64,000 nucleotides of DNA. Source: Cymodocea nodosa. Lineage: Eukaryota; Streptophyta; Magnoliopsida; Alismatales; Cymodoceaceae. Positions within the stretch are counted from its first letter, which is position 1; each line of letters begins with the position of its first letter. The stretch is taken from contig CM072345.1 of assembly GCA_036874045.1 (NCBI GenBank), positions 5,295,501 to 5,359,500 of the forward strand, given 5' to 3'. The translations under genes and the position numbers were made by a program. Shown piece by piece: positions 13,028 through 61,429 of the stretch. The notes beneath the pieces were generated by a model. That model did not search any database. It was not told where the DNA came from and saw only the letters and a list, made by a program, of their open reading frames with translations.

Positions 13028-13132
13028 AAGCAGTATAACTAAAGTAACTATGTATAATATAGTAAGTAGAAAAATATAAAAAAGAAAAAAAATGTAAGTT
13101 TAATTATAGTTAGTAATATCGTAAAGTTATTA

Positions 13133-13190: not shown

Positions 13191-13250
13191 TAGCTATGTT
13201 AATTTTATCTCTATTAAATTTTTTGTTTATGTTATACAAAATTACAACAG

Positions 13251-14213
13251 ATGGAATTGATGAAATTACCACTAGGTGCACTAAGGGAAGTACTGAGTAA
13301 CTTATCAACTAAAGATCTATGCAGATTGTGCTGTGTATCAAAAGAAATTAAAGATTGTGTTAGAGAAAAATATTTTCATGGACTACAAGCTGCAAAAATG
13401 ACTAAGATTAGAGATAGATTTTTATGGAAGTCATTTAATCGTAGTTCAATCAGCTATGAATATCTGAATATGGAAGAAACTGCTCGAATTCCACCTAATA
13501 CATTAGAAGGAATAGATCATATTATGGGGATAGATGAAAGATTAATTATTTACAGAACCAAACCAAGGTATGCAATTCTGTTACTTGATATTTTGATTAG
13601 AAATCCTATCATTAGAGAAGAATGGAATATAGGAAGGCCTCATAGATTTGAAGTACCAATTGAAAATTGTGGGTCAACATTAACATTTTCTAATAAAAAT
13701 TTGACCATTCTTGAAAAATTATATTACTAGAGACCAACTGGAAATTGGGATGAAGATCTATGCTTAAGTGTGTATAATTTTCTGAATAGATCTTGGACTG
13801 AAAATACTATGATATATCTAGGACAAAAAACATTAATTAACAACATACATGTCATACTTGATGGATATATATATTTAGTGTTAGATATATCAGTTGCATT
13901 TAGATTTGATTTATACATAGTAAGTTTAGATAGTTATGATGACGACTTTATAGAAATATTGCCTATACCGAGTGATATAACTAAACTACCGTCTGTAGAA
14001 TATGATAAAATTCAATTAAGGATGTGGTATAATGAATATGATGATCCTACTTTATGTCTGATAAGATGGTGGGATGAATTGATGAAATTTCAAATATGGA
14101 TTATGAAAGACCTAAATGAATGAAAGTGGGAAGAGGAATATATTGAAATAGATGTAGAAATAGAAACAGCTACATTATCTTGGAACAGAAAAGGATCCCT
14201 TTCTTCCAACTAG
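13251..14213 (+). pseudogene. F-box-like gene carried by Gypsy G2
   Basis: The N-terminus has the F-box signature: KLPLGALREVLSNLSTKDLC, then RLCCVSKEIKDCV and a Phe, as in SKP1-binding adaptors of SCF ubiquitin ligases. The rest (about 250 residues) resembles the C-terminal region of plant F-box proteins only in general character, for example PTGNWDED, SVYNFLNRSW and IRWWDELMKFQIWIM. One frame runs from ATG 13251 to TAG 14211 with two internal stops (TAG about 13728 and TGA about 14121). The homologue in G1 occupies the same site between gag and LTR, so this is a gene carried by the element family rather than a chance neighbour. Function in the element is unknown. Confidence 0.8.
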
Positions 14214-14252
14214 TTAGATCTTAGTTTGCTAAGGGACTAGCAAAATATAACT

Positions 14253-14262
14253 ATGGGGGAAT
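14253..14262 (+). promoter_or_regulatory. Polypurine tract of Gypsy G2
   Basis: ATGGGGGAAT precedes the TGTTTAGAATG start of the LTR. The G1 counterpart is GGTACGGGGGAAG on the minus strand. Confidence 0.75.
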
Positions 14263-16103
14263 TGTTTAGAATGAAAAAGTGCATATTATTAACAATTAAA
14301 TGATGGTTAATTGCATAATATTTAGCTTATCATATGAGAATTAAGCCATTATGTTATAATTACACTATTATATGCTTTAATGAAAGAATTTGCATAATTT
14401 TAGGAAGTTAACATTAATTAAGTATATTTCTGAACTGTCGATGAATTACAAGCTTTGAAATTCCTAAGTATCTGAATTTTCTATTATTTCAGAGAGTTAT
14501 ATTGCATGTATCGGACAATTATGTTTTTAACGATAGAAGAATATTTTATTATTTCCTAGAGTACACGTGTTGTAACCTTAATGCATGACTTAAGTGAATG
14601 TTCGGTAAGTTATTTGTTAACTATCCGAAATGCATCTAAGCATCGAATGCTTAGGTTTGTAAGTATCCAAAATATCTGAACTAGTTATTTCTTTATTATT
14701 GCATGTGTTTTATAGTTAAATCAATGAAGTCCATTAAGTTATCTGTAACTTCACGGACCATTTATTTTCTAATATGCTACTATAGTAGTTGCAAAAACAG
14801 GAAATTTGAAGGAAAACCACGATTACACGTATCACGTAGGAATTCACTTGTGAAATGTAGAAGAAATCACCATCATTGATATGAATGAAGGAAATCCAAC
14901 CGATCATCTAAGCAGAAGCAGTTACTACTGAACTAAATATAAAAGAAGAGGAGAAAGACAAAGAAGGTGTGCGTGTAGAGGTGGAGAACCGCGCTAACTA
15001 CAGGAAGCGTCAGAAGTTCCCTAAAGCTCCACACCACCACCAAAATCACCAACGATCGAATGTCTGGGAGGATACTTTCTTGATGTCGGGTTGATTTTGA
15101 GCCAAACATGGTGACTAACAACCACTATGAGGAGTGATTGCGTCGTGGGAAGGGAAGCCATTTTCACCAAGTATCGACTTATATCTTAGGAGATTGTAAA
15201 GCTTTTAACCTTGGTTTTAGGTTGATGCCAGTATGTTGAAGAGGAGATCATCTTACAATTCTTGATTCGCGATTCTATAGGGAGAGGAGGCAAGATTGTA
15301 AGTGATTAAGTTTTTAGTGGTGTAATCGTGTTGCATGTAATGACAGAAGTTTTTACTGTCAATAGAGATTTTTACATTTCACCTTTCGTTCATCTTCAAG
15401 AACATATTAAAAGAAAAATACCAAAAACAACAAATTATCTATGTTTACATTTAGTATTAAAGTGTTGTATTGTTTGTTTTGTATCGTGATTAATGTTATC
15501 ATTGTTCGTATTGTGAATGTTTTATGTTTGTTTGATTCAAAAAATAGAAAATAGTTTTATTATTTACTAAAATTGATTTGTTCCAAATACTTAAAGATTT
15601 TAATGGTTACTGTTTGAAATATCTAAATGTTAGTATTGCTTAATGATAAATCTAATATTAACAAACATTAAAGAGCTTAATTGATGTTATTTACATTTTG
15701 TGGAACTGCCCAATGGTTGACCAAATTCCTTTGTAAATAGTAGTATTTAATTGGAAAGGTAGGCTCATGGAGTTAACTTAAGTCCACAAGGTTAGTCCGT
15801 TGAGTTAACCATAACTCCACGAACTAGGACCGTTGTATTAACTATAACTCAACAGAGTGCTTAACTGAACACATATAAACTCCAATATAAAAATCGAAAT
15901 AGTACACAATTCTTACTCAATCTCTGTGGGATCGACCTGTACTTGCACATAAATACAATATACACTGTGCACTTGTAGTTAAAAATACAAATTGGATTTA
16001 ATATCTAATTTGTGTGAAAGGTTGTTTGTTTACTTCTAAAAATAATTATTTATATAAGCATAAAAACAAATTAAACAAGTTTTCTAACATTGCTGTATAA
16101 ACA
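14263..16103 (+). repeat. 3' LTR of Gypsy G2
   Basis: It starts TGTTTAGAATGAAAAAG like both G1 LTRs and ends near TGTATAAACA. Its 1841 bases compare with 1859 for the G1 3' LTR. Internal landmarks are shared with G1: hairpins around 15760-15860, the GGGATCGACCTGTACTTGCAC stretch near 15930 typical of Gypsy LTRs of this clade, and a GAGCCAAACATGG region. The exact 3' end is set by alignment with G1 and could be off by a few bases. Confidence 0.85.
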
Positions 16104-43237: not shown

Positions 43238-43944
43238 TGTTAGGTATTTAATTTTGATGATGTATGCTTTATTACCGTATTTAAATAAGTCTACATAATA
43301 TTCTCTAAGTATATTTCTCTAAGTATAATAGTTAACAGATTATCGGAAAGTTTCATTTTTATGTCGGATAAATTAAAGATTTTCGAAGAGCTAGATTTGC
43401 AATAGTTAAACTTTCAGATAGTTAACGTTTCGTTTTTGTCGAATACTTTATGTTAAAAACTCGTATAGTTAAGTTATCCGCACGTGTGTTTTTAATGTTT
43501 TAAGTTGTCACGTGTTTTCCATGTTCATTTGGTAATGAAAAATCGAATAGTTAGATAACTGTTCAAGTTTTTATATGCATGGATAGATAACTGTTCGAAT
43601 TTTGTAAAAGGACTAACGAATAGATAAGTTTCCTTGTGTAGTCACGTGTATTGCAGGTACAAGAACTCAAAGAGTTAAAGGATAAGTGTTCGAGTTTTGA
43701 CAGGAGTTAAAGGATAAATGTTCAACTTAATCGAAGACTTAGAAGATATTCTACAAGACTCCAGGAAGATAAAATTTTGGTGAATCTACGAGTGGAGATC
43801 GTGGAAACTCAGATTGTCAATAAAAGAAAGTGAAAATTTAAATAGAAAGTAATTTGGATTAAAGAGAAAATTAGTACGTGGATTATGGATTGTGGATCAA
43901 GTGGATGAACATGCTGAACGTGAAAGACAACAGAGTTCGACTAC
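43238..43944 (+). repeat. Copia D 3' LTR, left part
   Basis: It begins TGTTAGGTATTTAATTTTGATGATG. Its hairpins have arms like ATCGAATAGTTA / TAACTGTTCAAG and AACTCAAAGAGTTA, and CACGTG boxes occur near 43482, 43508 and 43644. It is interrupted after GTTCGACTAC by Gypsy G1 and resumes at 60919 with ACTACTAATAG. Confidence 0.9.
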
Positions 43945-45803
43945 TGTTCGTGTTTTCCCAGCACTACACTAGAAAAACTTGAATTTGTTACTTCTATTTT
44001 TACTTAGTTAATTTATCTTTATGCCTATTCTTTCTTTTAGAAGTAAACAAACAACATTTAATACAATTTAGATATTAATTCCAATTTGTACTTTAACTGC
44101 AAGTGCACAATGTCTATTGTATCAGTGTACAAGTACAGGTCGATCCCATAGGGAATTGCTGACAAATTTAAGAAATGTTTGATTGTGAACAATTCAAATT
44201 TATATTCAATAAGCACTCCATTGAGTTACAGTTAACTCAACGGACTAAGTTCGTTGAGTTATGGCTAATTCAACGGACTATCCTCGTGGACTTAAGTTAA
44301 CTCCATGAGCCTGTCTCTTCTTTATAATACTGCTATTTACAGAGGAATTCGGCCAACCATTGGGCGATTCCATAGATTGTAAATAACATCAATTAAGCTT
44401 TTTAATGCTAGTTAACATTGGATTTATCATTATGCAATACTAGCATTCAGATGATACAAATAGTAACCATTAAAATCTTTAAGTTGTTTTGTACGAACCA
44501 ATTTCAGTAAACTGTAAAATTAAAACTAACATACAACAATCATAAAACTAATATAGATAACATTAATCACGATACAACACAAACAATACAACACTCAAAT
44601 ACAACATACAAACAAAGATAAATTGTTTTTGGTATTTTTGTTTTGATGTGAACATGGAAATGAGCGAAAGGTGAAATGTAAAGTAATTTCACTTGACATA
44701 AATACTTCTGACACTACTTGCAACGTGATTACACCACTGAAAATTGAACCACTTACAATTCTGTCTCCTCTCCCTATAGAATCACGAGTCTAGAATGGCA
44801 AGATGATCTCCTCTTCAGCATACAGGCATCAACCCGAAGCCAAGGCTAAAAGCTTTACGATCTCCTGAAATATGAGTCGGCGCTTGGTGAAAATGTCTTC
44901 CCTTCCCGCGACGCGATCACTCCTTACAGTGGTTGTCAGGCATTGTGTTTGGCTCGGAATCGACCCGACATCAGGCAAGTATCCTCACAGACCTCCAATG
45001 ATTGGTGATTATGGTGGTGATACGATGGTTGGTGTGATACTTCGGAGAATCGTCGATACTATCTGCAGAAAGCTCAGTGCTCCTCCTCTGTATACACTGG
45101 CTGTCCATCTATCACACTCTTTCTTTTCTCTTCTTTTCTTTTATATTTCTTTAGTGGTAACTGCTTCTACTTGAATGATCGGTTGGATTTCCTTTCTTCA
45201 GATCAACGGCGATGATTTCTTTCTCCCTACGCAATTGAATTCCTGCGTGATACGTGCAAACGTGATTTTTCCTTCCAACTGTCTGTCCTGCAACCGCTAT
45301 AGTGGCATATTAGAAAATATATAGTCTGTGGAGTTATAGATAACTCAACGGACTTCCTTCGTTGATTTAACTATAAAACACGTGCAAAAATAACAACTTA
45401 AGTTTATAACGCTAACCTAACGCATTGCCTTAGTGTATTTTCATGTAACTCAGCGCGTGCAGTTATACTAACTTAACGAGTTATAACGTAAGTAAATCTA
45501 CCAGCTCTCAACATGTGTCAGTAGCAGTTTAAACATAAAATAACATTTCGGAGAGTTACAGGTATAACTATCTGATGCTCAAATGCATTTTCAGATACTT
45601 AAGAATTTCACAGCCTGCAATTTACCGATAGTTCATAAATGTACTAAATTAACATTAATTCCCCAAAATTAAGCAGATTCTTCAATTAAAGCATATAATA
45701 GTGCAATTATAACATAATGGCTTAATTCACATATGATAAGCTAAATATTATGCAATTAACCATCATTTAACCGTTAATAATATACACTTTTTCATTCTAA
45801 ACA
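43945..45803 (-). repeat. 3' LTR of Gypsy G1
   Basis: On the minus strand it runs from TGTTTAGAATG to GGGAAAACACGAACA. Perfect 10-12 base hairpins with TCCGTTGAGTTA / TAACTCAACGGA-type arms lie near 44215-44275, with related copies near 45325-45360. The ATCGACCTGTACTTG stretch on the minus strand is a clade landmark. An ORF on the plus strand inside it is considered accidental. Confidence 0.95.
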
Positions 45804-45816
45804 CTTCCCCCGTACC
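45804..45816 (-). promoter_or_regulatory. Polypurine tract of Gypsy G1
   Basis: GGTACGGGGGAAG on the minus strand ends exactly at the LTR start, as expected for plus-strand priming. Confidence 0.85.
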
Positions 45817-47805
45817 TAAATTTTGCTAGTCCCTTAGCAAACTAAGATCTAATTAATTGGTCTTTCAAAAAGTGCTAGAATTAATTCTTCCCCTTTTGTT
45901 TTTTTTTCTTCTGTTTAGCATAAACATATATTCTGTATGTTTCAGTAATCAACCTGCAAAGATATTTAGAATATATGTAAATTACATACAAAGTATATCA
46001 TCTTCATATAGGTGTTAATTATATTATCGTTTGTTCTTCTTTTCATCATCTGTAATCCTGAATTTTCCAATAAGTTTTTCTAGAAGAAATTTCAACAACA
46101 TACAAATTAAAGTACAATCCAATTCAATCTGATTAAGACAAGTAAAATAAAGAATTGTATTTCCACTAAACAACTTCAAAAGTCAATTCCAGATTCATAT
46201 TTCAGTAATTCTAGATAATAGAAAATATACTCGATTCATAAGATATCTGTATCTCATAAAACACTTGTATCTTTTCAGAACAGAATATGTTTTTTTTTTT
46301 TCTTTTTTTTTTCTCTTTTTCTTTTTTTGTACTTTAAAAGTTAATTTGACAAGCTTGAATCATGCAAGAGCTTTCTAATGTACCCATGTAACGAGCTTTC
46401 AGTCAACAATCCCAGATCTGATCAAGATCTTAGGTTGCCAAATTTTCAGAGTCCTTTTTCAGGTCAACAATCCTTACATACCTATCTGCTCAAGTACAAA
46501 AGGCTCGTGATCAAACAAGTCAATAAACTCTCAAGGTTTTTTTTTTTCTTTTCTTTTTTTTTTCTAAAAATAAATGCACACACAAAACAAAGCATTAATC
46601 ACATACTATATATGCACGTATTTCATTAACACAGATGTAGTAAAACACCAATCTCATATAATCTTGCTTCTATCATTTACTAAAGATATGAATCTATAAC
46701 AATAAGCTCATACTTTATCTGTAGTTTAATAAGACCTACACATAAATCATTCTACAAGTTCAATCAGTCAAAGTAAATGTATCTTTCATCATATGTGTTT
46801 CATTTAATCTAGAATTCATATCTCAGCTCCTTCAAGACTTCAGATAATTTTCTGATTAAGCATTAAATATTCTGATTTCATTTTAAAATCGTGAAACTGT
46901 TAAACTCATGAAATTCAGAAAAATCATAAGATACTATATCTAGATTTACATAAATAATAAATTCTATAGCATCTTCTATAGCCTTCTAAATATAACATTC
47001 AAGCAGTTTATAAAAATTTTATAGTCTCAATTATCGGATAGTTACAGCAAGTTCATAAAAATTTTCAATTTCCTCAAAACTTTGCAGTATCATTTTAATT
47101 CCTTTAATTAACAAACTTACATGGTTGTTACTTTAATTACCTCCCCCCCATACCTACATTTTGCATTGTCCTCAATGTAAAAGATTTAACAATAAGTACA
47201 GTAATTGTAGTAGGCATGAATAAAGTTTTGTTTGATTTAAAATTCAGGATAAGTAATTGGTTACATACCTTGTTCCATTTGTATCTCTTTCTGCATATTC
47301 CGATTTTTGATTCTGAAAAACTTTTCATTCCCAGATAAACACAAAATATAAAACAAAATAACATTTAACAGATATTAATAAATCAGTGTCTTGTGTGGAA
47401 CCCAGGCTCCTATGCCTTTGGTGGCTCACAAGCAAGCTAGTTGGTTTCCCAGAACAGATACCAACAAACTGATTGATATTTTGTTTTGTTCGTTTTCTAT
47501 TTTTTTTTATTTTATAAAATGAACATGAAAAACTTCAAAATTCCTTTTTTTTTTTTCTAAAAATAAATGCAGAATACACAACATTAAACACACAAAATCA
47601 CAGCTTAAGAACATGATTGAAAAGTAGAAACAAATGGAATAAATGTATCAGTCCTAGGAAACTTTTTAGGCATAGTTCTTCTTGCTATTAATTCTGTTTT
47701 AATGCAGTTCTTGGTCCTTTTTAATTTGTAAACATGCAATATATTATAAATTCCAAATACGAGTGTATTACCATTAATGATATGTAATGCAAAAAGGGAT
47801 CCTTT
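45817..47805 (-). other. G1 3' noncoding region, with blocks shared with Copia elements
   Basis: No ORF is supported in nearly 2 kb. About 46080-47000 is homologous to the Copia A spacer (4300-5180), and about 46520-47220 to the junction fragment 36898-37624. The region contains a G-rich tract (GTATGGGGGGGAGGTAAT on the minus strand, near 47145) that looks like a second polypurine tract with no LTR behind it. Several A-tracts (minus strand) are present near 46291-46328, 46540-46563 and 47546. G2 lacks this region: there the LTR follows the F-box gene by about 50 bases. Confidence 0.75.
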
Positions 47806-48743
47806 CTAGTTCCAGGGTAATGTAGCAGTTTCTATTTCTACATCTATTTCAATATACTCCTCTTCCCACTTCCATTCATTCATGTCTTCCATAATCCATA
47901 TTTGAAATTTCATCAGTTCATCCCACCATCTTATCAGACATAAAGTAGGATCATCTTCTTCATTATACCACATTCCTATTTGAATTTTATTAAATTTTTT
48001 AGATGGTGGTTTAGCTATTTCACTCGGTATAGGTAAAATTTCTGTATAATCATCATAATTGTCTATGCTCACTATGTATAAATCAGATCTATATGCTATA
48101 GATATCTCCGTGACTAAATAAATATAACCATTAAGTATGACATGTGTTTGGTTAATTAATGATTTCTGTCCTAGATATACTATAATGTTTTCATTCCAAG
48201 ATCTGTTCAGAAAATTATACACACTTAAGCGTAAATCTTCACCCCAATTTCCTGTAGGTCTCCAATAATATAATTTTTCAGGAATTGCAGAATTTTTATC
48301 AGAAAATATTAAAGTTGACCCACAATTTTCAGTTGGTGCTTCAAATATATTAGGTCTTCCTATATTACATTCTTCTCCTGTTATAGGATTTCTTGTCAAA
48401 ATCTTAGGTAATGATAAACTTGCATACCTTGGTCTCGTCTTGTATATGATTAATCCTTCATCTATCCCCATAATATGACTCATTCCTTCTAATGCATTGG
48501 GTGGAATTCCAGTAGTTTCTTCCATAGCCAGATATTCATGGGTATTTGAACTACGATTAAATGACCTCCATATGAATCCATCTCTAATCTTAGTCATTTT
48601 GCAGCTTGTAGTCCCTGAAAATATTTATCTTTAATACAGTCTTTAATTTCCTTTGATACACAACACATCCTACACAGATCTTTAGCTGACAAGTTACTTA
48701 GTATTTCCCTTTGTGCATCCAACGGTAATTGCATTAATTCCAT
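47806..48743 (-). pseudogene. F-box-like gene carried by Gypsy G1, one frameshift
   Basis: From the ATG (48743) the first 49 codons give the F-box: QLPLDAQREILSNLSAKDLC, MCCVSKEIKDC and KYFQGLQAAK. A run of four A near 48598, where G2 has five, then shifts the frame. The remaining 263 codons are fully open: PPNALEGMSHIMGIDEG, NCGSTLIFSDKN, PTGNWGEDLRLSVYNFLNRS, IRWWDELMKFQIWIM, then TAG 47806. One single-base length difference is the only lesion. The protein is about three quarters identical to that of G2. SCF substrate recognition is the known role of F-box proteins; what it does for the element is unknown. Confidence 0.83.
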
Positions 48744-48938
48744 TTGTCTATTCTGTAAAATAAAAACAAAAATTTAGTAGAGACAAAAATTAACATAACT
48801 ACTGCACACCCTCATGGAGTTAAGGCATAACTCAACGGACTAAGTTCGTTGAGTTAAAAATTAACTCTACGATACTATTAACTTAAAATAAAAATAAAAA
48901 CATATATACATACAGATAGTTGCTTCAAATATGTTGCT
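48744..48938 (-). repeat. LTR-type hairpins between gag and F-box gene in G1
   Basis: At about 48805-48872, on the plus strand, CATGGAGTTA, GCATAACTCAACGGAC, TTCGTTGAGTTAA and TTAACTCTACGA follow one another and pair as AGTTA/TAACT stems. The array lies about 70 bases upstream of the F-box ATG. No gene is present. Confidence 0.75.
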
Positions 48939-50282
48939 TCATTCAGCTGCCCTCCCAGAAGAGGTATCAATTTCATTAACCGTTCTATTAACAGGATTAG
49001 GTATAGTTTGTATTGGCAATCCTCCAGTAGGTCTAACTTCCATTGGTTCCTTCTGTCTAAGTGATATATTTCTATTCTGATTTTGATTTACAGCATTTCC
49101 AAATATAAATTCTAGACGATTGTTTACTTGTTGGATTATCTTTTCTAATTTCTCTATTCTAGCTCCTTGTTCAATTAATACTTCATAACTTATGTTCTTC
49201 TCATTTATATTTTCTCCTCCCTTGAAATTGTTGTTTCTCCAAGATAAATTCGGGTGATTTCTCCAATTAGGATTATAAGAATTTCCCAAGTTATCTCTCT
49301 GGTTTCTAGCATAAATAATATCTAAGTCATTTATGTTTGTATTCTTTTCTCCTAGCTTTTGATTTAATGATAACTCTTCTATTTTCTTTGTTAATTCATT
49401 TAATTTCACCTCAAGCATAGTATTGGAATCTATTTCATTCATTCCTCTTGGCAATAATCTTTTATCTGCAATAGCTTCAGCCGAATTTTCCCACTGTGCA
49501 GTTCTTTTTGCAAAATTTTCTAAATATGCCCATGCTTCTTCACTACATAATTTTAAAAATCCATTTTGACAAGTAGATTCTAATAAAGATTTTATTGAAA
49601 CATCTATGCCTTCATAAATTATGCCTATTAATTGTGCTTTACTCATTGCATGATGTGGACATTGAGTCAGTAAATCTTTAAATCTTTCAAAATATTTCTA
49701 GAATGATTCACCCTGTTTTTGGCTACACATTAATATTTCTTTCTTCTTTTTAATCGTTTGATGTGTTGGATAGTATTTTTCCAGAAAAACAGAGCAAAAT
49801 TCAGTCCATGTAGAAATTGAATCAGGCGACAGAGTATATAACCATCTTTTAGTTGTATCTTTTAAAGCAAAAAGGATATATCTAAGTTTAATAGCATCTA
49901 TACTCATGTTCGGCATTCTTATCATTTGACAAACTTCGTTAAATTCTCTAAGGAAATAATAGGCATCCTCTCTTTCTAATCCATGAAAATGTAGCAATTG
50001 ACTAATATAATTAGATTTCAGTTCAAACCTATCTCCGTCAAAGTTTGGCAATCGAATACAAGAAGGTTCATCAATTAATTCAGGATACAGAATCTCTCCT
50101 AATGGTTTTTCTACTGGAGCAGTCATCTCTACGTCCTCTTTTAAAGAAAGGTTAGCTATACCCCAAAGAATTTCGTTAAAGTTCAGTTCAGAAAATTTTT
50201 CAGTACTCCTCTGCAATGAAAATTCCTGGATAGGTGTTCTTACTAATTGCTTAGTGCTTAGAGAACGAGTCCATGTGCTCAT
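48939..50282 (-). pseudogene. Gypsy G1 gag capsid region at the element's 3' side
   Basis: The ATG at 50282 starts MSTWTRSLSTKQ. Pattern residues of Athila/Tat gag are clear: CIRLPNFDGDRFELKSNYIS, FHGLEREDAYYFLREFNEV, MSIDAIKLRYILFALKDTTK, WLYTLSPDSISTWTEFCSVF, KYYPTHQTIKKKKE. After one TAG (near 49697) come RFKDLLTQCPHH, AYLENFAKRTAQW and a coiled-coil segment. The only internal stop in about 447 codons is that TAG, and it is shared with G2. It ends NEIDTSSGRAAE without a zinc knuckle; the knuckle sits 8 kb away before protease. An ORF from 50556 in another frame overlaps the leader and seems accidental. Confidence 0.88.
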
Positions 50283-51226
50283 AAATAAATAACAGAAGAT
50301 TAATTACATACCAGTCTGAAGCTTTCCATTCTATAAATATTTGTTGTCGGATGAAGGTTAAATTAGCTACTTCTCCTTCCAGTTCCTCCAACGCTTTCTC
50401 ATTTCTCTTAAAAGTGCTAGTAACTCGTAAATAACATTTTGTTTCATATATATACTGCGCATCCATAAAGTGAATAAATCTCGTTGCAAGAACGTGTCTT
50501 GCAACGTGCATCGTGGTTCCTGTTTTAATGGGTACGTGTACCACTGCTAATTTCAAATTTTGGTAACCGCTAAACCGACGAAGTTTCGTTTGTGGTTAAA
50601 AGAATAACTATTCTGCTTAATCCACGAACTAACCTCGTTGAGTTACAGATTACTCAACAGAACACAGTCGGTTACTGTTGCTAACTCCACAGACTAACTT
50701 CGTTGAGTTACAGATAACTCAACGGAGTGACCTTATATTATATTACTGACCTCGTGGAGTTACGGTTAACTCAACGGAATTACTTCGTTGAGTTAACACT
50801 TGGCAACTTCTCAGTTTCACTCTTGTAAGTTTTCTATTCTGTTTTTTTTTTCTTTGTCATTCTGCTAACTGTAATAAAGTTAAATCTATGTCATTAATGC
50901 CTCATTTTGATTAAAATACATTTAAATCTGAACATTATATAAAGATTTAAATTGCAAATTATTTTATGTTATGCAGAATTTACATTTTACCTTATAACAT
51001 GCAGAAATTTTTAAGCAGTTATCCTGTCATTCAGCAAATTGTAAATCTGTTACATATTCATAAAGTTCCACAAATTACATAATATTCAATAAATTCCATT
51101 CATTTCACATTCAAATACATATGAAAATTGCATCTGAAAAATTATATTCATTAATATGAATCAATTACATTACAAGTACATCATACAATTTCATACAATT
51201 TTACACAAGTAGACGAACAATACAAT
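50283..51226 (-). other. G1 spacer between env-like ORF and gag, with hairpin array
   Basis: No gene is supported. At about 50630-50800 the plus strand reads repeated CTCGTTGAGTTACAGATTACTCAAC, TTCGTTGAGTTACAGATAACTCAACGG and TCGTGGAGTTACGGTTAACTCAACGG stems. At least three have 9-11 paired bases and 2-4 base loops. G2 has the counterpart at 11085-11345. The rest is AT-rich. Confidence 0.78.
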
Positions 51227-53445
51227 TTAATCTCTATGCCTAAGTTCATCTACTTCCTTCTAGAGTTTTTCTAATTGCTGCTCTAATTGATTTATCCTCT
51301 CTACTGCTCCTGCAATTTCTCTAGAAGGTACAACTAATTCTGCAGCTACAAAATTTCTGTATTCTTTCACTGAAATGGTTCTAGATCTTATCCTTTTTGA
51401 TATCCATTTAGTGAAATCAATACTATCCACCATCAGCAGTGGAATCAAATCTCCATAAAATAATTTCTTCTTCACTGTTTTCAGCTTAGAGATAAAAACT
51501 ACAGACCAATTTATTTGGATCTTATTTACAACTGCATACGTGGCCCATTTGACAAATTGACTTAATTCTATGTCATGGCCCTGTCGTTGATAGACATTCT
51601 TAATCAGAATGTTAGCTACCATGTGTGCTTTACCATTTAAATGCTTCAATCTGTTTAATAATGGCACACTAGGATTGATAGCTAAACAATCCTTAATTTG
51701 CTACTCAGTCCATTCAACTGCAGTTGTATCTTCCAAAATTTTTGTTCCTTCATTCTTTAAACCAAATATGTTGTGGAGAAGCTCTGGTGTTATCTGTACA
51801 TCAGCTTCCTCCACGTTTGAAATTAATCCTCCTTCTCCTTCTCTTAAATTTGCATAGAAACAGGGCACTAAATTCTCATATACTGCATGCCCTCTTTCTT
51901 GAGATATAAATTGCAGTAGACCTTGGAATTCAAATAGATCTTTGATTTCTTGCATTCCATCCCAATTTACTGGTCTACTGTAAATAATATCGTAACCCCT
52001 TATTTCTTGGTATTTGGTATAAACTTTCTGACTACAAAAATGTACTTCATTCAAAATTGTTGTTTCAGTCGGGTTAGGAAGGTGACTTTGTTGCTCTAGA
52101 GGGGTTTGCTCTTGCTCTTCCTCCAGCATAGGCTGCATTTGGACATTCTCTTCAGATTCCTGAATTTTTGCTTTTGCTTCTGTCTGTGGTGGTGAGCCGG
52201 TAGAACTCTCCACTCTACCTTGAATTCTTTCCATAATTTGCTGAAGAGTTTCTTGCTCTTTAGTGGAATCTGTGAAATTATTTTTGTCCAAATGGCTTCT
52301 TTCAGCCTCTTCATTTTCTACTCTTTCTTCTTCCTCCTGACTACCAATCTGTTCTGTTACTGTTCTTTCTGATTCTGTAACAGATTGGGATGGAGTCACG
52401 GGCAATTCAGTTTCTGCCCTTATTTCTGTTTCTTCTTGTACAAGCTGCAAACTAATTTCAGCCAGATTTTTTTCTTTTCTTTGCTCCTCCTCAGATTCGG
52501 ATAGCAGGTTAATAAAAATCTGCTCCACAAGCCCTGTAAAATTTGGTACTTCAGATTTAATTTCTTCATAATCAGGCACTTTTTCTTTTTCTTTCTTTTT
52601 TCTAATTAGTTGTGCCTGTTCTTCCTTTTCATCTTCTGAAATTAAATCTACAAAAATAGGCTCTGTAGGCTTTCGAACCACAGGTACTGGCTCTTCCTGT
52701 TTAATTCTTCCAATAATTGCTGGTCTCGAAGGACCAGCTTCAGCTTCTTTTGCAGCATATCTAATAGCAGTTTTGGTAGTAGCTTCTTGATGCTGTTCCA
52801 CTTTAATTTTATATTGAGCTTTCAACTTTTCTGCAGCCCTCTTTTTGTACAGTGCATCAAACACCAAGTGTGCTTTAGCCACTACCAAATCTTCTGATTC
52901 TCCTTGGTTTTTTCCAACTTGAACTAGTTCTACAAATTCTCTTATTTCTTCTTCAATCGAAGGCCCCATCATTTCTGCTCGTGCCAATGGCTTAAATGGT
53001 GGAACTGAAGGTCCAAACTGCTACTCCTCAAGAACAGGTCTTTCAGCAGTTGGTTCCTCCCGTTCTTCAGTTGTCTCTTCATTTACTTTCCTTTCTTGCT
53101 CCTAGATCACCCGTTTAGCTTGTCTACAGATTCGTCTTTTGAACCAGAGTCGGGACTTACGCTGGATTAATTCTAGGGAACTTCATTACTTGGCCTTATT
53201 TGTCTTTCCTTGCTTACAGCTATTTCTGTTGCTATTCTGATTCGTGTTTCCATTATTTGAGGTATTTGTATATCCATATCTACTAAATCTCTTCTAAACT
53301 TGAAAAGTTCTGATTCTACCTTCTGTAGCTATTTCTCTTTTGTCGTATTTCTGATCTTCTGCCGCGTGTGCCACTCTTCTGATTCCTTCAGAAATTCTGA
53401 TGTATCAACAACATCTTCCTAGAATTTAGGTGTCGTCTTCCTCAT
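51227..53445 (-). pseudogene. Gypsy G1 env-like ORF
   Basis: The ATG at 53445 is the first plausible start. The N-terminal part is broken by several stops. From about 52987 a 428-codon frame is open: charged Glu/Lys/Gln-rich region, then the conserved domain from about 52030: IIYSRPVNWDGMQ, LFEFQGLLQFI, LVPCFYANLREG, LLHNIFGLKNEG, TAG near 51701, LLNRLKHLNGKAHMVANIL, TYAVVNKIQINW, KKLFYGDLI, DFTKWISKRIRS. TAG 51260 (shared with G2) and TAA 51227 end it. The position after integrase is that of the Athila env-like ORF. The domain is homologous to Copia env-like ORFs A, D and B. No clear signal or membrane segment is seen. Confidence 0.8.
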
Positions 53446-54285
53446 CGTGGAGTTACACAACAGCACGGAATCGCTCTGATTTCTACTGTTCTAGATTCTA
53501 AATGATTTGTCGGATAATGCCCCCAAAATCCTAGGTTTTAGTTTAAATAAGCACTAAGTTTAGGCGGGTAATCGGGTCATTTCCCGAACCAACTATTACT
53601 ATTTTATCTACGGTCTTAGCTACAATACTCTGTTGTGTTACAGGTAACTCAACGGAATAAGCTCGTTGACTAACTCAAGACTTAATGGAGTATGCTCGCT
53701 GAGTTAAGCGTAACTCAACAGACTCCCCGTACAAGCAATTATAACAATAAAAATATTACAGAGAATAGTTTTTCTATTTTTTTATAGGTTTAACCGATAC
53801 TATGCTTCGGTCAGACCTAAATATTTTTTATTTTTTTTATTTTTCTTTCGGTTGAACCGATACTATGTTTCAGTAAAACCAATATTTTTTCTGAAAATTA
53901 ATATACAATTTTTTTTCCGGTTTAACCGATACTATGCTTCGATCAGACCAAAATATTTTTTATTATTTTTTTACTTTTCTTTCGATTGAACCGATACAAT
54001 GTTTCGGTAAAACTAAATTTTTTTTTAATGTTCCGGTCATACCAATGCTACGCTTCGGTCAAACCTAAATATTTTTAATTTTCCGGTCATACCGATGGAT
54101 CCAGTCGGTTGAACTGCAACTATTTTTATGTTTTATATATATTTTTAATGTTTTATATATATATATATAAACATAAAAACTGATTTCTTACTAAGTAAAA
54201 CTCGAGTAGTCCTCTACTCTGACTTCTTCTATAATTCCAAAGGAGCTTTTTGGTGTTTTCAGAATAGGTTTAAGTCTTTGTCCAT
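53446..54285 (-). other. G1 spacer between integrase and env-like ORF
   Basis: At about 53625-53720 LTR-type hairpins recur (TGTGTTACAGGTAACTCAAC, GCTGAGTTAAGCGTAACTCAAC). At 53786-54111 there is a degenerate tandem repeat, described separately. No ORF is supported. Confidence 0.75.
53786..54111. repeat. Degenerate tandem repeat with GGTTTAACCGATAC core
   Basis: Six units start near 53787, 53853, 53923, 53988, 54038 and 54079. Each has a CGGTTxAACCGATAC-type core (itself palindromic) followed after a few bases by CTTCGGT or TTTCGGT and a T-rich spacer. Spacing is about 50-70 bases. Alternate units are more alike (TATGCTTCGGTCAGACC versus TATGTTTCAGTAAAACC), suggesting duplication of a dimer. 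Confidence 0.8.
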
Positions 54286-55296
54286 TTAATTTAAATATAT
54301 TCTGATTTTTAGGATTTCAATTTCAATAGCTCCATAAGGATAAACATTTCGAACTATGTAAGGTCCTGCCCATCTAGATCTTAATTTTCCTAGATGGTTA
54401 TGGAGTCTAGCCATATAAAGATATACTTCTTGTCCTATTTCAAAGTTTTTAGGAATAATTTTTCTATCATGCCAGAATTTAATTTTCTCTTTTTCTCTTA
54501 CAGTCTTTGAATAAGCTTCATTTCTAAATTCTCCTAATTCAATTAGTTGCATTTTCCTATTTTCAGCAGCTTGATTTAAATTAGTGTTCAGAGTTTTTAA
54601 TGCCCAATAAGCTTTATGTTCTATTTCAGCAGGTAAATGACAATTTTTTCCATATACTAGCCTAAAAGGTGACATACCTAAGCTCGCTTTATAAGCAGTT
54701 CTATAAGCCCAAAGTGCATCAATCAATCTATTAGCCCAATCTGTTCTAATAGGATTTACTACTTTTTCCAAGATTAATTTAATTTGTTTGTTTACACTTT
54801 ATACTTGTCCACTTGTTTGCGGATGATATGATGTTGCAATTTTGTGGTTTATTCCATATTTCTTCATTAAGGCTTCAAAACTTTTATTACAGAAATGAGT
54901 TCCTCTATCACTGATAATAGCTTTAGGTATTCCAAATCTGGCAAATATATTTGTTCTTATAAATTGTATTACCACTTTGTTATCATTAGTTTTTGTAGGA
55001 ATAGCTTCTATCCATTTAGATACATTATCCACCCCCAACAATATGTAATTAAATTGATTAGATATAGGAAATGGACCCATAAAATCTATTCCCCACACAT
55101 CAAAGATTTCAACCTCAACAATAGGATTAAGAGACATCATATTCCTCTTTGATATTCTTCCTATTTGTTGACATCTTAAACAACTTAAGCAATATTTATG
55201 AGCATCTTTGAATAGTGTTGGCCAATAAAACCCACATTGCAGAATTTTTGTAGCAGTTTTCCCTGAACCAAAATGTCCTCCACAAGCTTGGTCATG
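54286..55296 (-). pseudogene. Gypsy G1 integrase with stop at the catalytic Glu
   Basis: The zinc region is HDQACGGH followed by CLSCLRCQQ (HHCC). The core has WGIDFMGPF (first Asp) and IISDRGTHF (second Asp). Exactly 35 residues after the second Asp, following HPQTSGQV, the codon expected to be catalytic Glu is TAA (54799-54801). The C-terminal part open at 54286-54771 is typical of Athila/Tat: [52 protein letters not shown] and YGAIEI. This copy cannot make a complete integrase. Confidence 0.92.
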
Positions 55297-57195
55297 ACAG
55301 AAAGACAATATGCTCGAATATTCAGTTTCTAGAGTACACCTCCTTAAAACTAGATCAAGACATTTCTTAAATAAGTAAGGGTCTTCCCAATAGTAATATT
55401 TTACTCTTGAAAAAAATAATTTCTTATCCTGTCTATTCCAATCCTTAGGTGTTAAACCAGTAACTAAGTAATTAACTATGTCTGCATACCAAGGCATTGT
55501 GTTGATGGTCATTAATTGTTCATCAGGAAAATTATCTTTAATTTCAATATTTGATTTTTCTATTTGTAATCTTGATAAATGATCTGCTACTACATTCTCA
55601 CAACCTTTTTTATCTTTAATTTCTAGATCGAATTCTTGCAATAATAATATCCATCGGATCAATCTAGGTTTAGTTTCTTTTTTCTTTATTAGATGTTTTA
55701 GAGCTGAATGATCCGTGTATACTATTACTTTAGCTCCAATCAAATATGATCTAAACTTTTCTAAAGCAAACACAACAGCTAATAATTCTTTTTCAGTAGT
55801 TGTGTAATTAACTTGAGCATCATTTAAGGTTTTGCTTGCATAATGAATCACTCTAGGAGATTTTTCTATTTTCTGTCCTAACACTGCTCCTACAGCAAAA
55901 TCAGAAGCATCGCACATTAATTCAAATGGATGGTTCCAATTAGGTGCTTGAATTATAGGAGTTGAAATTAAGTTAGTCTTAAGTCTAAAAAATGCTTCCT
56001 TGCAATTTTTATCAAAGTTAAATGGAACATCTTTTAATAGATTAGTTAAAGGTCTAGCTATCTTGCTAAAGTCTTTAATAAATCTTCTATAAAAACCAGT
56101 ATGTCCTAGAAATGATCTAATATCTTTTACTGATTTAGGTTCTGGTAGATTAGAAATTACTTTTATTTTAGGTTTATCTACTTCCAACCCTTTTTTAGAA
56201 ACAACATGCCCTAAGACTATTCCTTGTTTAACCATGAAGTGACATTTTTCCCAATTTAAAACCAGATTTTTTTCCACACAGCGTTTTAATATTTGGTCTA
56301 AATTGCTTAAACACACTTCATATGAGTTGCCATATATAGTAAAATCATCTATAAATATTTCTAAAAATTCATCAGTCATTCCAGTAAATATGCCCTACAC
56401 ACACCTTTGAAAGGTAACTCGTGCATTGCATAATCCGAATGGCATTCTTTTAAAAGCATAAATTCCATTAGGACAAGTGAAAGTTGTTTTCTCTTGATCC
56501 TCTAATGCTACTGGAATTTGATTATACCCTGAATACTTGTCTAGGAAACAAAAATATTCTTGCCCTACTAATCTTTCCAACATTTCATCTATAAAAGATA
56601 AGGGAAAATGATCTTTCCTAGTCACAGCATTCAGCTTTCTATAGTCTATACATACTCTCCAGCCTGATTGAATTCTAGTAGGTATCAAGTCTTGACTTTC
56701 ATTCCTAATAACTGTTAATCCTGATTTCTTGGGAACTACATGGATTGGACTAACCCACAAGCTATCAAAAATCAGATATATTATATCATTATCTAACCAT
56801 TTAACTATTTCCTTCCTGACTATTTCCTTAAGGTTTGGATTTAATCTCCTCTCAGGAATTCTAATAGGTTTAGCATTCTCTTCTAAATATATGTGGTGAC
56901 AGCATAAAGTTGAACTTAACCCTTTTATATCAGTCATAGTCCATCCTATTGCTTCTTTATAACTTTTTACTACATCTTTTAATTTAGCTATTTGATCCTC
57001 TTTCAAATCTGAAGCAATAATGATTGGACATGTCCGTTTATCTTCCAGAAATATATAGGTTAATTCAGGAGGTAAATGTTTTAATTCTAAACGCTGCCCA
57101 TCAGAAGCTAGAGCTCCTAATTGAACATCATCATTTTTTAAATTAATTTCTTCCTGATCTCCTTCTATATTTATGCTTTCACTTTCTTCTAAAGT
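55297..57195 (-). pseudogene. Gypsy G1 reverse transcriptase and RNase H
   Basis: The upstream part has LELKHLPPELTYIFLEDKRT and IGWTMTDIKGL, the usual lead-in to this clade's RT. RT motifs are RRLNPNLKEIVRKEIVKWLD, WVSPIHVVPKKSG, CIDYRKLNAVTRKDHFPL, KYSGYNQIPV and the catalytic FIDDF. TAG at about 56392 lies shortly before FIDDF and is the only stop within RT. RNase H shows [34 protein letters not shown] and [11 protein letters not shown]. In IIYLIFDSLWVSPI the usual Tyr-Pro-Ile of IYPISDS is changed. Confidence 0.94.
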
Positions 57196-57207
57196 TTCAG
57201 AATTGAT

Positions 57208-57895
57208 TTACCTATTTAATTCTTCTTGAATCACATCATCTAACCTATGTCCTTCATCCTCTAAAAAATCTATAGTACGTAAGGACATTTCTAACTCCTC
57301 AAACCTTTCTTGTTTGAAAATATTTAATTGAGTATCCTCATTACCATATGCTAACTTCATTACTCCAGTTTTACAATTTATAACAGCCCCTGATGTTGCT
57401 AAAAATGGCCTTCCCAAAATTAAAGATGTATCACTATTTTTATGCTTAATTTGTTGGGAATCCAAAATTACAATATCAATAGGATATATAAAATTCTTGA
57501 TTTTAATTAAGACATCCTCTAGGGTATCTTATACTTCTATCAGCTAATTGAATAATCGTATTAGTAGGAGTTAAGCCTTTTAATCCTAAGGATGCAAATA
57601 TATCACTTGGCATAACATTTATACCTGCACCTAAGTCTATTAAGGTTCTTTCTAGAATGGTATTTCCTATGGTGCATGATATAACAGGGATTCCAAGATC
57701 AGATAACTTTTTAGGAATTTGTGGCAGAAATAGGGAACTACTTTGCTCAGCTAAAAAGACCTTTCTAAGAACTTTTCGCTCTCTTTTCTTAGTACACCAA
57801 TCCTTCAAAAATTTAGCACAAGGTGGCATATTCTGCAATAGATCTAACAAAGGAATGTTAACTTGTACTTTTTCAAAAATTTCTATGATTTTTTC
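57208..57895 (-). pseudogene. Gypsy G1 aspartic protease
   Basis: The family landmarks are VNIPLLDLLQNMPPCAKFLK and KKLSDLGIPVISCTIG, then the catalytic IDLGAGINVMP, with Gly where DLGAS usually has Ser. A frameshift near 57500 leads to LILGRPFLATSGAVINCK, the C-terminal flap-side motif. TAA near 57208 ends this part. The frame upstream is separated by TAA near 57894. Confidence 0.88.
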
Positions 57896-58825
57896 TTATT
57901 TTTCAGGAATTGTTTGTTGTAATCTTTTAGGATAGGGTGCTAAAGATTTTGATTTCAAAGACTCTTTTTCTTTCAGTTGATTTGTTTGATTATTTTTAGC
58001 TTCAATTGCAGATTCAGATTGTTCTTTAGTGATTTCTAGATTTTCAGCTATTACATTTTCATTATCATTTTGATTTTTACTCTTGTCCACCTTCATATCA
58101 TTTTCATTTTGAGTTCTTGGTGGTATATCAGTTCTAGATCTTAATGTTACACATACATCTTCCAGATTTTCGTTACTTTCATGATGTTTTTGTATATCAT
58201 TTTCGTGATTATGATCTTCAATTGTTTTTAGTTTTAAAGTGCATTCTTTAAATTCTCTTACATTTGTGTTTCCTGTTTGTTGTATATTTTGCAAGTTGTG
58301 CAGGTTTATAACATTATAATTTTCATTGTCCTATTGTAAAACTTATATTTTCATTGCATTTTTGTCTAATGTTTTTAATTTTGTTTCCAGATCATCTAAT
58401 TTCATTGCATTCAATTTTTGATCAATTTTCTTTATAGCTTTTTCAATTTCGTAAATTATATCATGTTTAGGTTCTAAATATGCCTCCTTATAGTTTAATT
58501 GGTTGACTTCTTATTGTTGACACACAAAGTATTCCAGTTTGTCCAGATTTTGCTCTATACTATGCTCCAGTCTGTCATAGCTATCCCAAACTTCAGTGTC
58601 TCTCATCATATTACACATTCTATACTGACCATCAGTTGGGTAAACTATAGGATTCTCATACTCAGCTCTATTATATTGAGGATAATTCATTTGTTGTCCA
58701 TGGGATCTATCAATCAGTAAATGTCTCAATTTCAAACAATCAGAAATGTCGTGTCCTTCAGAATTACAGAATTCACATATGCTAATTAAAGGTTTCAGAA
58801 ATCTTTGAGCATAAGCATATGTCAT
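57896..58825 (-). pseudogene. Gypsy G1 zinc knuckle and linker (gag C-terminal remnant)
   Basis: The ATG at 58825 is only about 85 bases after the primer site. The N-terminus AYAQRFLKPLIS leads to the zinc knuckle CEFCNSEGHDISDC (C-x2-C-x4-H-x4-C). A Tyr/Asn/Glu-rich segment follows, then several stops (near 58511, 58335 and 58350) and a charged linker ending APYPKRLQQTIPEK, which usually precedes protease in Athila/Tat. No capsid-like sequence lies before the knuckle, so the main gag domain is absent here. Confidence 0.85.
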
Positions 58826-58829
58826 ATTC

Positions 58830-58908
58830 TCAATTCAATTCAGTTCAATTCAATTCAATTCAGTTCAATTCAATTCCGATCAATTCAATTCAATTCAGTT
58901 CAATTCAA
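58830..58908. repeat. (CAATT)n-like microsatellite after the G1 primer site
   Basis: CAATT and CAGTT pentamers repeat about 15 times with one CCGAT interruption. It occupies almost the whole leader between the primer site and the first ATG of G1. Confidence 0.9.
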
Positions 58909-58909
58909 T

Positions 58910-58927
58910 TCCCCGGCAAGGGTGCCA
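58910..58927 (-). promoter_or_regulatory. Primer binding site of Gypsy G1
   Basis: On the minus strand TGGCACCCTTGCCGGGGA lies 7 bases after the 5' LTR. It matches the Asp-tRNA-type site TGGCGCCGTTGCCGGGGA of Athila-like elements at 16 of 18 positions. Confidence 0.88.
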
Positions 58928-58934
58928 TAAAACT

Positions 58935-60918
58935 TGTTTGTGTTTTCCCAGCACTACACTAGAAAAACTTGGATTTGTTACTTCTATTTTTACTTAGTTA
59001 ATTTATCTTTATGCCTATTCTTTCTTTTAGAAGTAAACAAACAACTTTTAATACAATTTAGATATTAATTCCAATTTGTACTTTAACTGCAAGTGCACAG
59101 TGTCTATTGTATCAGTGTGCAAGTACAAGTCGATCCCATAGGGAATTGCTGACGAATTTAAGAAATGTTTGATTATGAACAATTCAAATTTATATTCAAT
59201 AAGCACTCCGTTGAGTTACAGTTAACTCAACGGACTAAGTTCGTTGAGTTATGGCTAACTCAACGGACTATCCTCGTGGACTTAAGTTAACTCCACGAGC
59301 CTGTCTCTTCTTTATAATACTGCTATTTACAAAGGAATTCGGCCAACCATTGGGCAATTCCACAGATTGTAAATAACATCAATTAAGCTTTTTAATGCTA
59401 GTTAACATTGGATTTATCATTATGCAATACTAGCATTCAGATGATACAAATAGTAACCATTAAAATCTTTAAGTTGTTTTGTACGAACCAATTTCAGTAA
59501 ACTGTAAAATTAAAACTAACATACAACAATCATAAAACTAATATAGATAACATTAATCACGATACAACACAAACAATACAACACTCAAATACAACATACA
59601 AACAAAGATAAATTGTTTTTGGTATTTTTGTTTTGATGTGAACATGGAAATGAGCGAAAGGTGAAATGTAAAGTAATTTCACTTGACATAAATACTTCTG
59701 ACACTACTTGCAACGTGATTACACCACTGAAAATTGAACCACTTACAATTCTGTCTCCTCTCCCTATAGAATCACGAGTCTAGAATGGCAAGATGATCTC
59801 CTCTTCAGCATACAGGCATCAACCCGAAGCCAAGGCTAAAAGCTTTACAATCTCTTGAAATATGAGTCGGCACTTGGTGAAAATGTCTTCCCTTCCCGCG
59901 ACGCGATCACTCCTCACAGTGGTTGTTAGACACTATGTTTGGCTCGAAATCAACCTGACATCAGGCAAGTATCCTCACAGACCTCCGATGATTGGTGATT
60001 ATGGTGGTGATACGATGGTTGGTGTGATACTTCGGAGAATCGTCGATACTGTTTGCAGAAAGTTCGGTGCTCCTCCTCTGTATACACTGGTCGTCCATCG
60101 ATCACACTCTTTCTTTTCTCACAGACCTCCGATGATTGGTGATTATGGTGGTGATACGATGGTTGGTGTGATACTTCGGAGAATCGTCGATACTGTTTGC
60201 AGAAAGTTCGGTGCTCCTCCTCTGTATACACTGGTCGTCCATCGATCACACTCTTTCTTTTCTCTTCTTTTCTTTTATATTTCTTCAGTGGTAACTACTT
60301 CTGCTTGAATGATTGGTTGGATTTCCTTCCTTCAGATCAACGGCGATGATTTCTTTCTCCCTACGTGATTGAATTCCTGCGTGATACGTGCGAACGTGGT
60401 TTTTCCTTCCAACTATTTGTTCCTGCAACTGCTACAGTGGCATATTAGAAAATATATAGTCCGTGGAGTTACAGATAACTCAACGGACTTCCTTCATTGA
60501 TTTAACTATAAAACACGTGCAAAAATAACAACTTAAGTTTATAACGCTAACCTAACGCGTTGCCTTAGTGTATTTTCATGTAACTCAACACGTGCAGTTA
60601 TACTAACTTAACGAGTTATAACGTAAGTAAATCTACCAACTCTCAACACATGTCAGTAGTAGTTTAAACATAAAATAACATTTCGAAGAGTTACAGGTAT
60701 AATTATCCAATGCTTAAGAATTTCACAGCCTACAATTTACCGACAGTTCATAAATGTACTAAATTAACATTAATTCCCCAAAATTAAGCAGATTCTTCAA
60801 TTAAAGCATATAACAGTGCAATTATAACATAATGGCTTAATTCTCATATGATAAGCTAAATATTATGCAATTAACCATCATTTAACCGTTAATAATATGC
60901 ACTTTTTCATTCTAAACA
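58935..60918 (-). repeat. 5' LTR of Gypsy G1
   Basis: It pairs with the LTR at 43945-45803. The length difference of 125 bases is explained by a 144-base tandem duplication here (59975-60118 and 60119-60262) and a deletion of about 19 bases near 60705. Hairpins are intact: TCCGTTGAGTTA at 59207-59218 pairs with TAACTCAACGGA at 59223-59234. Confidence 0.95.
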
Positions 60919-61429
60919 ACTACTAATAGAGAGTACGAGCTACATTACAAAGGGGATCCCAATCTCAAAAACCAAGTCTGAATGTTCAATCTGGATCCCT
61001 AACTGAAAAGTTAAGTTTGAATATTCATATTCTGAAAAATTCTCCAACATTAGAAGAAGTTCGAAATTCTAAGCAATTTTAGAAAAGGAGTTGCAAATGC
61101 AAGAAGTCTGGAAATTCGACAACTGGAGAAGAAGAGATACAGAAGTTGAGCAAAGAGAAAGAAAAGAGCTATATGCATAAAGATCAAGTTTTATACAATT
61201 CAAAATTAGTTTTGAAAAAGAGCTTTGTTTTCCTATTTGAATTGAATATCAAAAATTACTGTATCAAAACCGTCAAAAAAGGAATTGAGCTGAAAAGATA
61301 TTGTAAATTCTATCTTGAAATAAAAGAATAGAATTTCATTTACGAGTGTTTTGTGCTCTTGTTTTATCCGCTAGTTTAATTACTAAAGACACAATTCACC
61401 CCCCCTCTTGTGATACAGACGATCCTACA
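60919..61429 (+). repeat. Copia D 3' LTR, right part
   Basis: It begins with the second copy of ACTAC and continues the LTR cut at 43944, ending CACCCCCCCTCTTGTGATACAG-type sequence and CCTACA. The inverted D-type LTR at 16131-17060 shows the same sequence without interruption. Confidence 0.9.

Follow-up and report, generated by a model that had tools for sequence, protein, structure and literature searches.

A gag gene placed behind integrase in Ty3/gypsy-type elements of the Cymodocea nodosa genome: evidence for a probable relocated-gag clade

The element G1, on the minus strand at 43945-60918 of a 64,000-nucleotide stretch of the Cymodocea nodosa genome (GenBank assembly GCA_036874045.1, contig CM072345.1, positions 5,295,501 to 5,359,500; hereafter the window), is a long terminal repeat (LTR) retroelement in which the capsid part of gag lies behind integrase and an env-like open reading frame (ORF). 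We demonstrate that this permuted order is spread over several families of elements, that in G1's own family (family A) it has been transposed as a unit, and that the moved gag has been conserved as coding sequence. G1 probably belongs to an abundant clade of Athila-like Ty3/gypsy elements with relocated gag, in which gag would have been duplicated, the 5' copy would have lost its capsid part and capsid would be made from a separate RNA.

The original prediction had described a complete element bounded by LTRs and an ACTAC target repeat, with the capsid part of gag after integrase and the env-like ORF, and both claims were borne out by the LTR pair, the 5-bp repeat on both sides and a Pfam match to the gag. 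Read from LTR to LTR, the order is LTR - zinc knuckle/linker/protease/reverse transcriptase (RT)/RNase H/integrase - env-like - gag capsid - F-box - LTR, with the following features:

60919..60923, minus strand: target-site repeat GTAGT (ACTAC on the plus strand), 5' side of G1, read directly
58935..60918, minus strand: 5' LTR of G1, from sequence comparison within the window
58910..58927, minus strand: primer binding site (PBS) after the 5' LTR, at the same position in other copies
58514..58834, minus strand: start of the 5' ORF, with zinc knuckle CEFCNSEGHDISDC and without capsid, seen as CX2CX4HX4C
57899..58330, minus strand: gag-type linker with TLRSG-like junction (VTLRSR), in the 5' ORF of G1
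57211..57895, minus strand: aspartic protease, frame shifted in G1, Pfam match below the cut-off (E 0.0093)
56398..57207, minus strand: first part of RT (PF00078)
54289..56394, minus strand: end of RT, RNase H and integrase (PF17917, PF17921, PF00665)
51263..53020, minus strand: env-like ORF, PF20167 below the cut-off, one in-frame stop at 51701-51703
48939..50282, minus strand: displaced gag of G1, i.e. capsid and gag C-terminal linker without zinc knuckle, with its own start and stop
47806..48743, minus strand: F-box protein ORF of G1, frameshifted near its start relative to the partial copy G2
45804..45816, minus strand: polypurine tract before the 3' LTR, read directly and at the same position in other copies
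43945..45803, minus strand: 3' LTR of G1, from sequence comparison within the window
43940..43944, minus strand: target-site repeat GTAGT, 3' side of G1, read directly

Compared as two BLAST pieces, the LTRs are 97.2% (1186 bp) and 92.7% (821 bp) identical; over 1839 aligned columns the figure is 96.5%. The 5' LTR carries a perfect 147-bp tandem duplication (59974-60264), which is probably younger than the insertion of G1 because the 3' LTR does not have it. In the displaced gag the Retrotrans_gag model PF03732 matches at 49701-50303 (8.9e-8, Pfam scan), and there is a single in-frame stop at 49698-49700. The claim that only a zinc knuckle remains before protease held in part: the knuckle is there and capsid is gone, but a gag-type linker and the TLRSG-like junction remain as well. 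A Pfam scan gave no match to the knuckle at 58514-58834. The gap between the PBS and the knuckle ORF is only ∼80 bases, mainly simple repeat, and therefore leaves no space for a capsid 5' of the knuckle.

We take the G1 lineage to be Athila-like from its PBS, which is presumably of the tRNA-Asp type, together with the TLRSG junction and the env-like ORF; our integrase tree holds no element labelled Athila. The earlier label, Athila/Tat, was narrowed to Athila-like, a name that rests on these sequence features. Pfam scans of the integrase ORFs matched no chromodomain, and in the general Pfam scans RT_RNaseH models alone matched RNase H, no profile aimed at the Tat archaeal-type RNase H having been used. 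The F-box ORF of G1 itself matches only FBA_1, weakly, the F-box domain (PF00646) being matched in G2 and in another copy. Integrase lies 3' of RT, so the Gmr1-type order with integrase before RT is absent. G1 has the PROT-RT-RH-INT order of Ty3/gypsy elements (Metaviridae), with LTRs, a short target repeat, a PBS and a purine tract; however, gag before protease, as in the definition of these elements as GAG-PROT-RT-RH-INT (given in the available part of PMC6317226), is found neither in G1 nor in the other permuted copies. The Athila ORF-1 domain PF03078 was not matched in Pfam scans of the G1 ORFs; the same text has it in 16% of Athila elements and not as a required feature (PMC6317226).

We searched the genome (374.6 Mb in 28 contigs; a single genome) with pieces of these elements. 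Only the best candidates were scored, and each count is thus either a minimum or a sample of the best matches. With the G1 gag as query, the best 40 of 4207 candidates (G1 included) were at 97-100%, and 39/40 ran across all 1344 bases; the best 40 of 3528 candidates for the F-box were likewise all at 97-100%, and the best 40 of 4674 for the G2 gag (G2 included) were at 90-100%. The ten next-best gag copies after G1, i.e. the most similar and not a random sample, were examined with 10 kb upstream and 5.5 kb downstream. Seven (C7, C23, C21, C12a, C12b, C5a and C5b) have the complete order LTR-knuckle-linker-protease-RT-RNase H-integrase-env-gag-F-box-LTR, some with internal deletions and C23 with a truncated 5' LTR. 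Copy C11 has the permuted order without env and F-box; on the far side of its LTR, which it shares with a second element, come that element's knuckle and pol. In C10 nested LTRs take the place of the pol side, and C15 is a mosaic with a gag piece of another, nested element upstream. None of the ten has gag 5' of the knuckle or protease within one LTR-bounded unit, i.e. the arrangement named beforehand as contrary to the original prediction was not seen; a neighbour's protease or pol lies beyond the 3' LTR in C10, C11 and C12b. As an observation in its own right, C11 (L013/L014) apparently consists of two family A elements in tandem on one LTR, a type of intermediate that could yield a permuted order.

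Target repeats were found in 3/3 copies with both ends covered (C7, AATGT, exact; C12b, ATAAC, exact; C12a, GTGCC/TTGCC, 4/5), and LTR identity was 0.952-0.969 (95.2-96.9%) in six copies, with the 5' LTR cut by the end of the fetched stretch in three and C23 left out because of its truncated 5' LTR (0.628). From these target repeats and LTR pairs it follows that the permuted family A element transposed as a unit. The surroundings of G1 are full of nested repeats, which would suit the insertion of a gag-F-box element behind env or a chimeric contig, but the same junctions recur at numerous loci spread over many contigs, and the copies tested for it have target repeats of their own; misassembly, nested insertion and a single-locus accident are therefore ruled out for family A, and we regard this explanation as extremely improbable. 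The earlier claim that a lineage had moved with a displaced gag, instead of a single accident having occurred, is supported. The 5' ORF runs in a single frame from knuckle to integrase in 2/8 copies, stops included.

The order extends beyond family A. Upstream of C15 lies an element of family B, diverged from G1 (53-68% amino acid identity over RT to integrase; LTRs 93% alike), with a knuckle ORF carrying TLRSG, protease to integrase and part of gag, and without env. A query spanning the junction of integrase and gag in this element matched 41 rows for integrase and 34 for gag. The rows belong to family B, with integrase at 90-94%, and to family C, at 78-79%, and in 34/34 gag rows gag lies 368-440 bp 3' of integrase on the same strand. 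Integrase is followed by gag in 7/7 family B loci read. In the family B copy upstream of C15 gag overlaps the end of integrase, but this was rejected as a feature of the family; it is a local deletion, since in the other B copies the two matches are separated by about 380 bp. With the outside gag protein P0005 as query (best 103 places of 6074 candidates), integrase lies directly upstream at 12/12 fetched loci (at L051 the integrase end only, with a second gag on the opposite strand), and protease, knuckle ORF or TLRSG was found downstream of gag in 0/12 within a flank of about 1.5 kb. At one of these loci (L042) a diverged F-box match lies 3' of gag (3306-3974, 32% amino acid identity). The permuted order thus occurs in no fewer than six families of the integrase tree (A, B, D, E, F and G) plus family C; the lineage first proposed is supported, and its scope was set too small.

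Canonical order was sought with proteins from outside. A Prunus protein with gag at residues 3-87, followed by RT, RNase H and integrase, aligned solely via its pol part (from about residue 315) at 42/42 listed matches, the best of 21,023 candidates; a frame of 1489-1491 amino acids is stop-free inside the match at 11/42 of these loci. Gag lies within 3 kb of 17 of 66 distinct pol loci among the matches listed, and all 17 are downstream. The canonical-type gag P0003 gave 116 rows, 34 of them new beside the P0005 places (judged by eye), and a Cynara gag gave 112 rows, the best place of which (C9:2.66 Mb) has several stops and could be a canonical remnant. Two gag queries found no relatives on viral contigs. 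Two results count against a clade-wide relocation: 49/66 pol loci have no gag within 3 kb among the matches listed, which, being the best matches, do not make these loci negative, and in family H 3/3 fetched top pol loci have none in the kilobase that follows the pol match. Upstream of one of these three is a frame with knuckle, linker and protease, of reported length 1471 amino acids, which, if bounded by a stop, starts at about the start of the fetched stretch and so leaves no place for a capsid before that knuckle.

An integrase tree was built from 16 permuted loci, all of this genome, and 26 database proteins (L033 was left out because of its short length). All 16 permuted rows group together in a single clade (support 96/95), which comprises six families (A, B, D, E, F and G), and Prunus and Rosa proteins with an N-terminal gag fall outside it. 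The alternative that the permuted order arose several times, through recombination between families, draws on reports that Athila families recombine often (according to the available part of PMC2410132), on the mosaic copy C15 and on several open forks in the tree; we consider it distinctly unlikely given that all 16 permuted rows fall in one clade. Nevertheless, canonical order is known for two tree rows only, the other 24 being of unknown order, and 16/500 label shuffles were equally clustered; for these reasons a single origin of the permuted order is supported rather than shown by these sequences.

The distribution of zinc knuckles suggests how gag could have reached its place. When six outside gag relatives were aligned with the G1 gag, a strict CX2CX4HX4C lay between capsid and the WRNHP motif in four (P0001, P0002, P0003 and P0007) and a near match to it in P0005 and P0006, and the G1 gag has no knuckle segment there. 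CX2CX4HX4C is found in 0/8 family A gags in any frame, while the family A 5' ORF has a strict knuckle in 7/8 other copies and, in the eighth, a knuckle with its last Cys changed. The knuckle is retained in the 3' gag of families B and C and at 11/12 P0005 loci, and family B has one in its 5' ORF also. Families B to G, as read, thus keep the knuckle in the 3' gag and family A has lost it, so that in family A capsid and knuckle are in separate proteins.

The simplest path to this distribution would be the following: (i) in the ancestor of the clade a copy of gag would have been duplicated 3' of integrase, via a tandem or duplicated intermediate; (ii) the 5' copy would then have lost its capsid part, keeping the zinc knuckle, linker and protease junction, and the first ORF would have become nucleocapsid-like plus protease, RT, RNase H and integrase; and (iii) the second, 3' knuckle would later have been lost in family A. 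It speaks against this path that the knuckle of the 5' ORF could instead be a newly acquired CCHC domain. Alternatively the capsid part alone may have moved, e.g. through a circle, leaving the knuckle behind without any duplication, and family A taken by itself, with its knuckle 5' and its capsid 3', looks just so; this is unlikely, however, as the gags of families B and C keep a 3' knuckle while B also has one in the 5' ORF.

The condition of the displaced gag was assessed by comparing G1 with G2. As both have the order env-gag-F-box, their gags are assumed to have diverged after the move. The selection estimate w for the gag frame was 0.35 (bootstrap 0.23-0.51; 438 codons, 8 skipped), compared with 0.14 for the env end and, for the F-box, 0.44 in the C part and 0.13 in 39 codons of the N part. 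Identity between G1 and G2 is 88.8% in gag, 76.1% in the env-gag spacer, 71.0% in the gag-F-box spacer and 77.5% in the LTR, and transversions per site are 0.031 in gag against 0.114 in the env-gag spacer. These values support the displaced gag as what would be a working gene in its new place. Pulling the other way, an off-frame control was also below 1 (w 0.51, 0.35-0.79; third frame 0.96, 0.67-1.49), so that part of the signal is not frame-specific, gag transversions differ little by codon position (11, 12 and 19), and all 8 family A gags read carry in-frame stops, which means that the family A copies read are dead.

The control and the stops, along with descriptions of gag-less Retand clusters (in the accessible text of PMC11963269), would also fit a 3' gag that is passive cargo, i.e. 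a captured fragment in elements that are non-autonomous for capsid and borrow Gag in trans. We consider this very unlikely, since w is low in the frame of gag, gag has changed much less than the spacer from the time when G1 and G2 parted, the stops are mainly private (no position is common to more than 3 of 8 family A gags), a 454-amino-acid frame is stop-free inside the match at 11/103 gag places, and the region around the start of gag is similar across six families. A stop shared by the G1 and G2 gags was considered as ancestral and rejected, being present in 2/8 copies only, of which G1 is one; parallel deamination is likelier given this rarity and the CHG context. CG and CHG sites were often lost between G1 and G2.

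A gene in this position would need its own means of expression. The displaced gag has its own ATG, and its N-terminal pattern is alike in families A, B, C, D, E and G, with the start unresolved at 4/10 loci. A strong 3' splice-like sequence stands directly before gag in two family E loci, GTATGT lies 29 bases before gag in 11/11 family A copies, an ACAG acceptor-like site precedes the F-box ATG in 8/9 family A copies besides G1, and G2 has retained a GTAAGT of the LTR. What does not fit is the lack, in family A, of a clear 3' splice site within 75 nt of the start of gag. In addition the LTR contains a palindrome that recurs in three spacers (integrase-env, env-gag and gag-F-box); a motif scan of G1 gave the following in the spacers:

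53629..53723, minus strand: two 29-bp palindromic motifs in the integrase-env spacer, with 3 and 6 mismatches to the pattern
50634..50779, minus strand: env-gag spacer with three palindromic motifs, between which lies a TATA-like stretch
48817..48867, minus strand: two palindromic cores in the gag-F-box spacer

The strict palindrome core has 16 matches in the window, all in G1 or G2, against 0 in 40 first-order Markov simulations. Palindromes as a feature of the whole clade were rejected, as none was found in the two B/C stretches scanned, and we do not claim the env-gag spacer as an old LTR: the similarity is real but mainly carried by the palindromes. The integrase-env spacer also holds imperfect repeats with GGTTTAACCGATACTATGCTTCGGTCAGACC (53742-54080).

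The splice-like sites and palindromes fit the existence of separate capsid and F-box RNAs, which would arise by splicing or from an internal promoter. Pol would then be made from the first ORF of full-length RNA, capsid from a separate RNA, spliced or internally initiated, and the F-box protein from a further spliced RNA, and the capsid:Pol ratio would be set by transcription or splicing, not by frameshift, readthrough or gag-pol processing. The case is evenly balanced for a broader proposal, namely that this deep clade has reversed the retroviral plan, its first ORF being Pol with an RNA-binding knuckle and its capsid coming from a separate 3' gene; in G1's family RNA packaging would, if this is true, run through Pol, because capsid and nucleocapsid are no longer one protein there, and the excess of capsid would be set by subgenomic RNA. 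The F-box ORF at the 3' end of family A is open over 389 codons in 2/9 copies, and a protein database search for relatives of it gave 127 candidates, none significant; an effect of such an element-borne F-box on host silencing is a matter of speculation.

The second relevant element of the window, and some of its other contents, are as follows:

10055..16080, plus strand: G2, partial copy of a related subfamily with env end, gag, F-box and LTR, from sequence comparison with G1

G2 was said to have the same env-gag-F-box-LTR order as G1, and this holds: from the end of env onwards, gag, F-box and LTR follow as in G1, without change of order, at about 75-89%. G2 has no pol side, however, and by itself is therefore no proof of the permuted order. 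G1 is inserted into a copy of a repeat with CACAAGAGGGGGGTGAATTG (60918-61426 and 43584-43842), and the same repeat stands on both sides of G2 in opposite directions (about 10000-10055, by eye, and 16135-17028). The absence from G2 of 45860-47793, between the F-box and the 3' LTR of G1, suggested an insertion in G1; this was rejected, because copies with F-box and 3' LTR show identical spacing and the segment thus belongs to family A, and G2 has probably lost its counterpart. Part of this region also stands behind another env-like stretch (36897-37624 against 46524-47237, 94.5% identical). Three further env-like stretches of diverged elements (6829-7809, 36108-36860 and 41802-42620) have about 26-40% amino acid identity to the G1 env, and several degenerate elements, presumably Ty1/copia-like, were recognised from their ORFs at 1390-4217, 18754-25238 and 27032-31362.

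To our knowledge, LTR elements and retroviruses almost always place gag first and make Pol in molar deficit; the clade described here breaks the gag-first order yet has multiplied, and its shell protein and enzymes are probably made in some separate way. In the open-licence literature searched, where most matching papers were judged from listings, we found no report of a gag displaced behind integrase. The nearest known relatives are the Athila clade of non-chromovirus OTA Ty3/gypsy elements, which are alike in their PR-RT-RH-INT order, long LTRs and related gag and pol sequences, in the env-like ORF after integrase (family A) and presumably in PBS type; the difference is that here gag follows integrase (or env) and does not precede protease, the knuckle is fused to Pol, and gag has its own start. 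In foamy viruses (Spumaretrovirinae) gag is the first gene. They are alike in that their Pol is no Gag-Pol fusion, Gag and Pol being separate products (as stated in the available text of PMC7828637), as would be expected of the present elements from their gene order; they are also a mirror image, as it is pol that is made there from a spliced RNA (PMC7828637), and no relation is claimed. Gmr1-type Ty3/gypsy elements are another lineage with an altered domain order, with integrase in a Ty1/copia-like place (Goodwin and Poulter 2002, cited in PMC2774666); there it is integrase that moved, and the accessible part of PMC2774666 reports no moved gag. Sireviruses resemble G1 in having repeated palindromic motifs in the LTR and upstream of env, for which an internal promoter for env was suggested and not demonstrated (PMC2829016, available part); they differ in palindrome sequence and in belonging to Ty1/copia, and the same part reports no moved gag. 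The gag-less Retand clusters share a pol without a preceding gag domain; the part of PMC11963269 at hand does not report a gag elsewhere in the element. In a reference survey of 13,863 classified sequences, mostly from plants, elements with an unexpected domain order were always removed as likely mispredictions (PMC6317226, available text), and elements without gag before pol may be filed as gag-less; standard pipelines could therefore discard a permuted lineage. The permuted clade is a natural test of the need for a Gag-Pol fusion in enzyme packaging.

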